From Oscillospiraceae bacterium (GTDB taxonomy: Bacteria > Bacillota > Clostridia > HGM11514), in assembly GCA_015068925.1 (NCBI GenBank), contig SVJP01000006.1, positions 1 to 32,597 of the forward strand: a stretch of 32,597 bases of DNA, written 5' to 3'. A program made the translations under genes and the position numbers. Below, one piece after another: positions 1,445-28,700 of this stretch (position 1 is the stretch's first letter; each line of letters opens with the position of its first letter). The notes under the pieces were generated by a model. The model was given only the letters and a program-made list of their open reading frames with translations. It searched no databases and was not told the DNA's origin.

Positions 1445-1602
1445 GTGCAGGAGAAAGGCGTTTGCCTTGCCGAAGGAGTAATGCTCTCAGGTGCGATAGC
1501 GGTGACTGTTCACAGATAGCACTCCGGAGAAGTCCTAACATAACAGGATGCCGAAGGTGTAAAGCCCTTTTGGGTTAATCTCTCAGGCAAAAGGACGGAG
1601 AA
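1445..1602 (+). ncRNA. Tandem glycine riboswitch
   Basis: Two aptamer-like cores: GCCGAAGGAG...CTCTCAGGTGC and GCCGAAGGTG...CTCTCAGGCAAAAGGACGGAG, upstream of an AGCS-family symporter. Confidence 0.93.
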
Positions 1603-1629
1603 AAAAAGGTTTTAGTCGGCTTTTTTGAT

Positions 1630-12677: not shown

Positions 12678-14360
12678 ATGATGAAAAAGCCAAATGTAAA
12701 GGAAATGACAATTCGGGAAAAGGTGGGACAATGTGTTTGTATCCGTCAGTATGATTTGTTGCAAAAAACAGAGGTTGATGAGTATTTGCCGAGACCTTTG
12801 GAGGAACGGGATGAAATTTTACAAAAAAATCCTTACGGTGTTCTTTGGTGTGCAGGAAATCAGAATCTGAAAAATATTAACATGAGCGAGAAAAACTACG
12901 GAAATTACAAGGTGACCAGCGACGAGTATAGGGAATGGATTAAGGGTTTGAACAAAAACTGGGAAATCCCCGGTCTTATGGCAACCGATGCGGAATCTTC
13001 GGGAGCAGGCACCATTTTTTCTGATTTAACCATAGTGGGAAGCGGTCTTTCCATCGGTGCGGCAAATTCTGAAGAATTATCCTATGAGCTGGGGGTTGCC
13101 GTCGGAAAGGAGCTTCGTTGTGCAGGAATTAATTGGAGATGGGCACCTGTTGCAGACCTTCCCAGCAGATTTTCCATGAGTTGTATGCGACCCTTTTCTT
13201 TGAATCCCGACCAGTTGGTTCGTCTGGCTTCTGCTCACATTAAGGGAATGCAGTCGGTGGGTGTTGCGGCAACATTAAAGCACTTCCCCGGTTCTGACGG
13301 CTATGAATACAGAGATTCTCATTTCACCAACGCGGCATTGAATATTTCCATGGAAGAATGGTGGGAACGGCAGAGAAAGGTGTTCCAGAAATTGATTGAC
13401 AGCGGTGCATATTCCGTTATGATTGCCCACGAAACCTTTGAATCTGCCGATGATACCATGGTAAACGGAAAACTGATTCCTTCTACCTTGTCCAAAAAAA
13501 TCATTACTGATTTGCTCAAAGGAAAAATGGGCTTTGAGGGAGTTGTTATTACCGATGCGGTGGGAATGGCAGGGTTGCAGGCTTGTTATCCTTATCAACA
13601 GTTGTTGGTGGAATTGATCAAAGCAGGAAATGATGTATTGCTGGGAACAGGCTTGGATGCTGTGGATATTCTGGAACAGGCAGTATTAAACGGTGAATTG
13701 CCCGAAGAACGGGTGGATGATGCTTGCCGCCGTGTGCTGGAAATGAAGGAAAAGCTGGGCTTGTTTGATGAAGATTATCGGATTGACGAGTATCGGGCTT
13801 GTGAGGTAACACCCCGTACACGGGAAGTTGACAATCTGATTTCTGAAAAATCCATTACCTTGATTCGTGATAAGCAGAATCGTTTGCCCTTTGACAAAAA
13901 TCAGGTGAAGAAGGTTAGTGTGATTTGTTCTACCCATGATGATACCTTTATGGATCGGATGGAGGTTTTGAAAGCAGAACTGGAAAAGATGGGCATGGAG
14001 GTCAGAATGCAGCGTCGCCTTTCTTCCTTTGAAGAAATACAGGAGATTAACCAAAACAGCGACTTGATTCTTTATGCTGCATATCTGGCACCCCACAGAC
14101 CGAAAGGTGCTATGAGTTTTTATGATGAGGAATGCCAGACCTTCGGGTTTGCCTTTACGGAAGGAAATGAAAAATCGGTTGGTGTGTCTTTTGGATATCC
14201 TTACATATTCTATGATTTCATGGGAAATGCAGATATTTGCGTTAATGCTTACTCAACCAGCGATGCCACCATCAAAGCTTTTGCAAAAACCTTGTTCGGA
14301 GATTTGCCTATGGATGGAGTGTCTCCCGTCAAGTTGAATCCTGATCGAAGAGTGTTTTAA
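12678..14360 (+). CDS. Glycoside hydrolase family 3 protein (beta-N-acetylhexosaminidase-like)
   Basis: GINWRWAPVADLPS, ATLKHFPGSDGYEYRDSHF (KHFPG motif), GVVITDAVGMAGL. Confidence 0.92.
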   Translation: MMKKPNVKEMTIREKVGQCVCIRQYDLLQKTEVDEYLPRPLEERDEILQKNPYGVLWCAGNQNLKNINMSEKNYGNYKVTSDEYREWIKGLNKNWEIPGLMATDAESSGAGTIFSDLTIVGSGLSIGAANSEELSYELGVAVGKELRCAGINWRWAPVADLPSRFSMSCMRPFSLNPDQLVRLASAHIKGMQSVGVAATLKHFPGSDGYEYRDSHFTNAALNISMEEWWERQRKVFQKLIDSGAYSVMIAHETFESADDTMVNGKLIPSTLSKKIITDLLKGKMGFEGVVITDAVGMAGLQACYPYQQLLVELIKAGNDVLLGTGLDAVDILEQAVLNGELPEERVDDACRRVLEMKEKLGLFDEDYRIDEYRACEVTPRTREVDNLISEKSITLIRDKQNRLPFDKNQVKKVSVICSTHDDTFMDRMEVLKAELEKMGMEVRMQRRLSSFEEIQEINQNSDLILYAAYLAPHRPKGAMSFYDEECQTFGFAFTEGNEKSVGVSFGYPYIFYDFMGNADICVNAYSTSDATIKAFAKTLFGDLPMDGVSPVKLNPDRRVF

Positions 14361-14389
14361 GAAAAAAATTGTAAAAATGTTCAAAACGG

Positions 14390-14476
14390 AACAACCAAGC
14401 AAAAGCAAAGCTTTTGGTTACCCAAAGGCGTACGGGGAGTACGTTGAGCGGTGATGTTTTTTCGCAGCAAAAAGGT
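14390..14476 (+). ncRNA. Conserved structured noncoding motif, copy A
   Basis: AACAAC-hairpin-ACCCAAAGGCGTACGGGGAGTACGTTGAGCGGTGATGTTTTTTCGCAGCAAAAAGG; matches 28507-28592. Confidence 0.6.
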
Positions 14477-14514
14477 TGAAAATCTTTTGTAAGAGATTGT
14501 TCAACCTTTTTTTA
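14470..14514 (+). terminator. Intrinsic terminator
   Basis: AAAGGTTGAA...TTCAACCTTTTTTT with inner stem AATCTT/AGAGATT. Confidence 0.85.
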
Positions 14515-14541
14515 TTTCACACTTTTTACATTTTTTGAATT

Positions 14542-15270
14542 TTACAGATAACCGAGTCTTCTTGCCAGTAATGTGAGAAATTGCTTGTTGGTCAGTTTGC
14601 CTTTATCAGCAGATGTTTGATCAAGAATTTCTTGTATGTAAGAATTGCTACACTTTGTAAAAATGCAATCAATCTCATATCGGATTTTTCGTTCTATGCT
14701 TTGAGGAGTAGTCTCAAATTGTTCTGCAAGCTTGGGATATAGTACGGATGTGATGCTTTTTGCACAGTCTTTTTGTGAGGAAATCAGCAGTAATGCATGT
14801 TGAATCAACTGATATCCGTCTGTATGAGATCGTAATTCAAATTTGTTTAACAGATTACTGATGCGGTTCTTCTGAACTTCAATTTTTTCTTCTTGAACTT
14901 TGCAAAGCTGAAGGATTCTTTCTTGCAAAATGCTCCATTCCACAGGTTTTTTGATTACATAAGTGATGGCTGACCGAATTTGATCAGGAATTAGCATTTG
15001 ATTGATTTCCCAAGCACTCATAGTGAAAATAAAGGGCCGATAAGAAGGTAATGTTTGAGTCATCCAGGTGATGACACCAATTCCGTCCATCAAAGGCATA
15101 CAATGATCCAATAAAATCAAATCCGGTTGAAATTGTCTGATTTTAATGCAAGCATCCTTTCCGTTATGCGCAATGCCAATCAATTCCATGGAAGGGTGCA
15201 GACGAACCATTTCGCCAATACAAAGACAAAAGTCTTTATCATCATCTACAACTAAAATTTTCATTTTCAT
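14542..15270 (-). CDS. Spo0A-like response regulator (receiver plus Spo0A C-terminal DNA-binding domain)
   Basis: MKMKILVVDDDKDF, PDLILLDHCMPLMDG, KK at receiver end; C-terminus SITSVLYPKLAEQFETTPQSIERKIRYEID...LTNKQFLTLLARRLG aligns with Spo0A effector domain including the ER..IR helix. Confidence 0.88.
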   Translation of the reverse strand: MKMKILVVDDDKDFCLCIGEMVRLHPSMELIGIAHNGKDACIKIRQFQPDLILLDHCMPLMDGIGVITWMTQTLPSYRPFIFTMSAWEINQMLIPDQIRSAITYVIKKPVEWSILQERILQLCKVQEEKIEVQKNRISNLLNKFELRSHTDGYQLIQHALLLISSQKDCAKSITSVLYPKLAEQFETTPQSIERKIRYEIDCIFTKCSNSYIQEILDQTSADKGKLTNKQFLTLLARRLGYL

Positions 15271-24782: not shown

Positions 24783-24809
24783 AAATGAGGGCTGTTTGAA
24801 ACAAATAGA

Positions 24810-24847
24810 GGCTGTAGCAAGCAAAATAATTTTTGCTTGCTACAGCC
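24810..24847 (+). terminator. Terminator-like hairpin between convergent genes
   Basis: GGCTGTAGCAAGCAAAA-taat-TTTTGCTTGCTACAGCC. Confidence 0.8.
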
Positions 24848-24856
24848 CCTTGAATT

Positions 24857-28333: not shown

Positions 28334-28427
28334 ATTGATATGAAACTTTTTTCGATAGAAGAAGCAGTCCGTTGAAAAAGTCGGTCTGATGTAAACAAAA
28401 GGAATTTGTTGGACTTTTATCTCAAAA

Positions 28428-28459
28428 GGAGGGGTAGCAAAACATTTTGCTACCCCTCC
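28428..28459. repeat. Perfect 15-bp inverted repeat
   Basis: GGAGGGGTAGCAAAA-ca-TTTTGCTACCCCTCC. Confidence 0.9.
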
Positions 28460-28506
28460 GGTTCGTTTCAGGGTGGAAGAAAAATAGTGCAGAATGGACA
28501 AAATCT

Positions 28507-28592
28507 AACAACGGGATTATCATCCCGTTTGTCACGCCCGAAGGCGTACAAAGGTACATCGAGAGACGAGTTTTGTTCATAGCAAAAAGCAG
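28507..28592 (+). ncRNA. Conserved structured noncoding motif, copy B
   Basis: AACAACGGGATTATCATCCCGTTTGTCACGCCCGAAGGCGTACAAAGGTACATCGAGAGACGAGTTTTGTTCATAGCAAAAAGCAG; aligns with 14390-14476. Confidence 0.6.
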
Positions 28593-28700
28593 TTTTTACC
28601 TCTTGTTTTCTGTTATTTATGAAATTTTAGTTTATCTGAACGGCATAAATAAAGTTTTTTGTTTTGTGCGATCTGTGCATTTTGCTACATCCTCTTTATT

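Follow-up and report, generated by a model that had tools for sequence, protein, structure and literature searches.

A putative cross-phylum family of REP-like mobile hairpins with a near-invariant tip

For the extragenic palindromes of bacteria, the usual explanation is a single enzyme family, the RAYTs, and such repeats are generally regarded as lineage-specific. REP sequences have been linked to RAYT-type Y1 transposases (PMC6006769). The REP, BIME and REPIN sequences of E. coli and other bacteria are dispersed, multi-copy, imperfectly palindromic and intergenic, lie often just past stop codons and are patchily distributed, and the element described here shares all of these properties. However, it is conserved at its tip, whereas REP sequences are conserved at a GT[AG]G foot; in addition, one and the same tip is present in many phyla, and a Y1/RAYT partner is missing in half of the 12 bearer genomes. 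At the foot, where REP sequences carry GTAG or GTGG, the element is not sharply delimited, and the sequences inspected there vary by lineage. It is not a RAYT-type REP as defined.

Two other types of element are also close. Like MITEs, the clostridial units, of about 230-290 bp, have matching ends (terminal inverted repeats) and occur as near-identical dispersed copies. Unlike MITEs, the element has lineage-specific ends and an internal fold that is kept across phyla, and neither a clear target duplication nor, among the matches of the hairpin arms, a parent transposon was seen for it. Integron attC sites are, like the element, folded single strands at gene 3' ends, on the template strand and in arrays, and the bottom strands of attC sites would have the same orientation as the folded strand of the element. 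However, no cassettes and no known integrase accompany the element, and its tip is conserved. Similar intergenic palindromic families, present in many copies, have been described in Geobacter (PMC2996986, PMC2700814), a genus which also bears the element. The palindromic, terminator-like candidate structured RNAs obtained by comparative genomics from the human microbiome (PMC8040213) are comparable as well, although no description that fits the element was found in the passages of the main text that were inspected.

The best explanation, with a probability of about 0.58, is that the copies belong to a family of REP-like mobile hairpins, non-autonomous and shared by many phyla, the tip of which would be recognised as a single strand by a putative factor.

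The two copies in the window

The window, the whole stretch of DNA that was analysed, comprises 32,597 nucleotides of contig SVJP01000006.1 from an Oscillospiraceae bacterium (GCA_015068925.1). In an initial annotation, made from the sequence, a two-copy motif had been described, and both copies were found again at the same places and on the same strand (Table 1). The pattern shared by them, AAGGCGTAC-N3-8-GTACRTYGAG, matched exactly twice in the window, with 0 matches expected from shuffled sequences.

Table 1. Coordinates of the element and of neighbouring features in the window
Feature	Positions	Strand	Remarks
Glycine riboswitch aptamer	1514-1608	+	58.5 bits
GH3 glycosidase gene	ends at 14360	+	flank of copy A (Pfam)
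Copy A, whole element	14362-14538	+	fold; outer stem 14362-14379 / 14522-14536
Copy A, P1 5' arm	14387-14395	+	pairs with 14456-14464; fold and P1 covariation in 26 clostridial copies
Copy A, variable side hairpin P2a	14400-14416	+	arms 14400-14406 / 14410-14416
Copy A, conserved core	14423-14448	+	apical stem P3 14427-14433 / 14439-14445; E=4.8e-5
Copy A, match of the shared pattern	14425-14448	+	
Copy A, terminator-like hairpin	14469-14511	+	inverted repeat within the 3' half of the element; arms 14469-14480 / 14500-14511
spo0A-like gene	14542-15270	-	flank of copy A (Pfam)
Solitary hairpin	24808-24849	+	shares the GGCTGTAGCAA arms but lacks the core; related terminator-like repeat
CCGTTGAAAAAGTCGGTCTGATG	about 28368-28391		upstream of copy B
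Copy B, upstream hairpin	28428-28459	+	GGAGGGGTAGCAAAA/TTTTGCTACCCCTCC; also ahead of most clostridial copies
Copy B, whole element	28471-28692	+	fold; outer stem 28471-28493 / 28672-28692
Copy B, P1 5' arm	28495-28503	+	pairs with 28571-28579; fold and covariation
Copy B, variable side hairpin P2a	28511-28528	+	arms 28511-28517 / 28522-28528; ACGGGAT/ATCCCGT
Copy B, P2 around conserved core	28531-28567	+	GTC 28531-28533 / GAC 28565-28567; E=2.6e-4
Copy B, match of the shared pattern	28541-28563	+	
Copy B, P3	28543-28549 / 28554-28560	+	one C.A mismatch

The proposals that a variable hairpin lies at an equivalent position in both copies and that copy A leads into a terminator were confirmed, the latter by the terminator-like hairpin of copy A. 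Other parts of the architecture had to be reassigned. GTTTT, which had been read together with AGCAAAAAG as one stem, is the 3' arm of P1, the 5' arm of which lies upstream, as indicated by the fold and by covariation. The AACAAC strings considered to be shared are not equivalent, since the string is located inside P1 in copy A and in a junction in copy B. Both copies also extend, with an outer A/T-rich stem, beyond the ends assigned to the motif before (14390-14476 and 28507-28592) to the approximate limits given in Table 1, and the revised end of copy B agrees with full-length copies of related genomes. Compared to dinucleotide shuffles, folding gave z = -3.8 for copy A with its terminator and z = -3.3 for copy B, better than almost all shuffles, and z = -1.4 and -2.6, respectively, for the copies trimmed to the earlier ends.

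According to Pfam, copy A lies between a GH3 glycosidase gene and a spo0A-like gene, whose 3' end directly adjoins it and which codes for the domains Response_reg and Spo0A_C. Copy B is flanked by an ORF without Pfam assignment on one side and by a radical-SAM gene on the other. The arm pattern GGCTGTAGCAA has 25 matches in the genome, several of them without the element, and 0 for the reversed control; this hairpin is a separate repeated terminator-like hairpin. The stretch CCGTTGAAAAAGTCGGTCTGATG upstream of copy B resembles a genome repeat, GGTAGACCGACTTTTTCGACAGTCTGAGG, of the loci L007 and L280-L283, which likewise adjoins an GTAGCAAAA hairpin, so that the repeats are nested. Within the window, Rfam matched only a glycine riboswitch aptamer, far from both copies.

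Copy number and distribution of the family

The core of the element, CC-GAA-GGCGTAC-N3-8-GTACGTC-GAG-GG, caps a long, interrupted hairpin. The view of a motif restricted to two copies did not survive, since 8 exact cores were identified in the source genome (2.18 Mb in 220 contigs, estimated to be 86% complete), and none for the reversed control pattern. With R1, a covariance model of the core and the adjoining stem, 14 matches were obtained in this genome at E<=10 and 10 at E<=0.0013, so that the family has about 10-14 members there. At several further sites of the source genome, a decayed core is accompanied by an upstream hairpin and a 5' end like those of the other copies. The covariance-model search of related Clostridia, which had been suggested for host and relatives alike, also yielded further copies.

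A scan of GTDB genomes with the core pattern identified at least 118 stretches in many phyla, of which about 8, apparently chance matches in coding sequence, were left out by eye. Conservation outside the host genome is thus evident. The hosts include Clostridia, Oscillospiraceae, Phascolarctobacterium, Nitrospira, Geobacter and other Desulfuromonadales, Bifidobacterium, Acidimicrobiia and Helicobacteraceae, as well as Gammaproteobacteria, Fibrobacter, Omnitrophota, Acidobacteriota and one Synergistota species. Among the matches listed, the common layout begins with an outer stem, which is separated by an internal loop from the inner stem; beyond this follow the GAA/GAG internal loop and the GGCGTAC/GTACGTC tip. 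The exact core pattern was also present in ten viral contigs (loci L252-L261), as pattern matches which may be real elements or chance.

The copy number is high in some genomes. At E<=1, a rough count since 150 candidates were scored per genome, 100 and 128 copies were found in two Nitrospira genomes, 106 in a MAG of the Gammaproteobacteria, 51 in B. simiarum and the same number in Phascolarctobacterium, and 26 in Geobacter AOG1; stricter cut-offs gave 27 copies for Nitrospira RSF3, 45 for B. simiarum and 21 for Geobacter AOG1. In the class of the source organism, 44 of 388 genomes and 29 of 220 genera were positive at E<=1e-5, after 6 of 60 genomes in a first sample. Presence is patchy even among relatives.

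The element belongs to no Rfam family: with Rfam 15, nothing was found at the element in the window and at 18 loci from many phyla, at curated and at permissive cut-offs, in agreement with the earlier statement that no named class could be recognised. In the papers listed by a literature search, the core letters occurred only in primers and unrelated oligonucleotides.

Fold, strand and pairing with gene ends

Covariation among homologues is present. In the inner stem, compensatory changes were identified at all eight pairs among 98 distinct model matches, with a covariation score of 0.326 compared to 0.124 in shuffles; none of 500 shuffles reached the score, and controls with slid positions stayed at or below 0.128. 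For P1, 9 of 11 pairs showed changes on both sides among the 26 clostridial copies, and no shuffle was as good. The tip, in contrast, is nearly invariant, with rare exchanges of C-G to U-A among the 98 matches. This invariance is partly imposed by the seed pattern, so that the tip informs more on sequence recognition than on pairing. The clostridial copies contain an extra variable side hairpin, P2a, between P1 and the tip, which differs between copies A and B and, in length and sequence, from copy to copy, and an added 3' half with the terminator-like hairpin and the outer stem.

When both strands were folded with the core masked, the AAGGCGTAC strand was favoured in the clostridial copies (p = 2e-5), in the other groups (p = 2e-9) and, at p = 0.06, in Bifidobacterium. 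Single mismatches on this strand were G.T in 93 cases and A.C in 32, in helices found with Watson-Crick pairs only; the ratio was 19:5 in the clostridial, 67:24 in the other and 7:3 in the Bifidobacterium copies. The asymmetry in folding and the excess of G.T imply that one strand is selected to fold. The constraint postulated at the RNA level was borne out as far as folding is concerned, as the covariation indicates. However, RNA and single-stranded DNA both fit the folded strand, and the designation as a noncoding RNA motif is not established. An operator in double-stranded DNA is unlikely, since the GTAC halves are set apart by a spacer of variable length, 3 to 8 nt. In post hoc GC-skew tests on three genomes, the structural strand was the C-rich strand in Geobacter AOG1 (17:4) and, weakly, in Nitrospira (16:7), whereas it was the G-rich strand in B. 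simiarum (21:3, with arrays collapsed by hand). The opposite skew in B. simiarum and Geobacter argues against a single replication-strand rule.

The core lies close behind gene 3' ends, mostly those of genes on the opposite strand. Downstream neighbours, taken as long ORFs with approximate positions, were antisense for 37 of 55 non-clostridial copies, with most stops 48-92 nt from the core, and for 19 of 26 clostridial copies, with most stops at 149-187 nt. Across the loci, the neighbours are ordinary housekeeping genes with no common theme, function or enzyme. Clostridial copies are usually preceded immediately by a terminator hairpin, which leaves little space for a promoter. The element is not a riboswitch, a named ribozyme or a known IS end; a riboswitch or 5' leader was rejected because of the position at 3' ends and the unrelated neighbours. 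An intrinsic terminator was likewise rejected, since no U run follows the conserved hairpin in Bifidobacterium and the terminator is a separate hairpin in Clostridia.

On the 3' side of purD, at least one copy is present in 9 of 10 Bifidobacterium species. There, the outer stem takes in the stop codon and the last codons of the gene, with matched changes between species (AATAAC/GTTATT, GATAAC/GTTATC, CGTAAT/ATTACG and AATAGC/GCTATT), and in the one species without the purD element, the complementary arm is missing too. At purD, selection may maintain the hairpin; alternatively, the arm may be a copy of the gene end which template switching keeps palindromic. The presence in 9 of 10 species and the compensated outer stem resemble a function kept by the host more than a free parasite. 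Half of 38 non-clostridial copies near an antisense stop also pair at least two of its three bases. A repeat which pairs and coevolves with a stop codon offers a handle on the role of 3' hairpins in translation and decay.

These pairings, together with the location at 3' ends, would suit an RNA element with a function at mRNA 3' ends, selected by the host for protection against 3'-5' exonucleases, for termination or for slowing of the ribosome over the stop codon. In E. coli, REP sequences within 15 nt of the stop codon stall ribosomes (PMC12306157). However, the constrained strand is usually the antisense strand of the adjoining gene, the clostridial terminator hairpin leaves little room for a promoter, and presence is patchy with random neighbours, so that this explanation, though the main rival, is considered rather unlikely. 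Still less probable is a multiplied family of independent small noncoding RNA or ribozyme genes. The near-invariant core within variable stems, the strand asymmetry and the terminator hairpin after many clostridial copies would fit such genes, but the small promoter space, the missing Rfam match and copy numbers of at least 100 in some genomes, very unequal between relatives, would not.

Probable mobility of the element

The initial annotation had named a mobile palindromic repeat as an alternative, and this fits better, in view of the dispersed near-identical copies, tandem arrays, patchiness and random gene neighbours. In one clostridial genome, three copies share 93-94% identity over about 270 bp, whereas the identity of their flanks, 49-52%, is at the chance level. 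Tandem arrays were identified with a period of about 240 bp in the genome G062 and of about 107 bp in B. simiarum.

For the family of mobile hairpins favoured here, it is proposed that the AAGGCGTAC strand, which is the + strand in the window, would fold into a long interrupted hairpin, with the near-invariant tip as the recognition site of a putative trans-acting factor, presumably as a single strand; the remaining stem would be variable, needing pairing alone. Copies would settle in the non-coding space that immediately follows stop codons and terminators; in some genomes they would multiply, including as tandem arrays, and in others they would decay and vanish. Effects on termination or on mRNA 3' ends would be by-products. 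For a purely selfish repeat, conservation of one tip in many phyla is unusual.

Repeats of this kind are usually spread by one of two enzymes, neither of which appears to move the element. No Y1 transposase (PF01797) was found in 6 of 12 bearer genomes, namely those of Geobacter AOG1, the two Bifidobacterium, Phascolarctobacterium, Helicobacteraceae and Acidimicrobiia with 14-51 copies, and no reverse transcriptase (RVT_1) in 11 of the 12, which led to the rejection of a retroposed element. This implies a mover still to be found, or host replication and repair, and either may account for the mobility. More tentatively, the tip could be the recognition site of an undescribed system of single-strand hairpin mobilisation or of a host factor, based neither on Y1/HUH nor on reverse transcriptase and present in many phyla. 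One tip sequence kept in repeats of many phyla, also in RAYT-less genomes, suggests an overlooked mobile-element or RNA-processing system, and what recognises the tip is a directly testable question.

A REP of the known type, mobilised by a REP-associated tyrosine transposase (RAYT/TnpAREP), is very improbable: the multi-copy, intergenic, palindromic and patchy character and the Y1 proteins encoded by some bearer genomes would agree with it, but Y1 is missing from the six bearers named above, the three Y1 genes of the source genome are IS200-like with no core beside them, bearer loci have no neighbouring gene in common, and conservation is seen at the tip instead of the foot. Equally improbable is a single-strand recombination site for a tyrosine recombinase, like the attC hairpins of integrons, for although the folded strand is the template strand of the adjoining gene, at its 3' end, and tandem arrays occur, there is no grouping of gene cassettes, the tip is conserved rather than the base, and no integrase was seen among the adjoining genes.

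By eye, neither a clear target-site duplication nor an empty site was seen for the full-length clostridial units. Their ends, also judged by eye, are mutual inverted repeats, AAAAGGGGCTGTAAA and TTTACATTCCCTTTT, or the equivalent GTAGCAAAA. In gammaproteobacterial copies (L009, L031, L055, L111 and others), the element is followed by an extra common 3' hairpin, CCGCAGTAGAAG..TCATGAATAATGCGGGCT.
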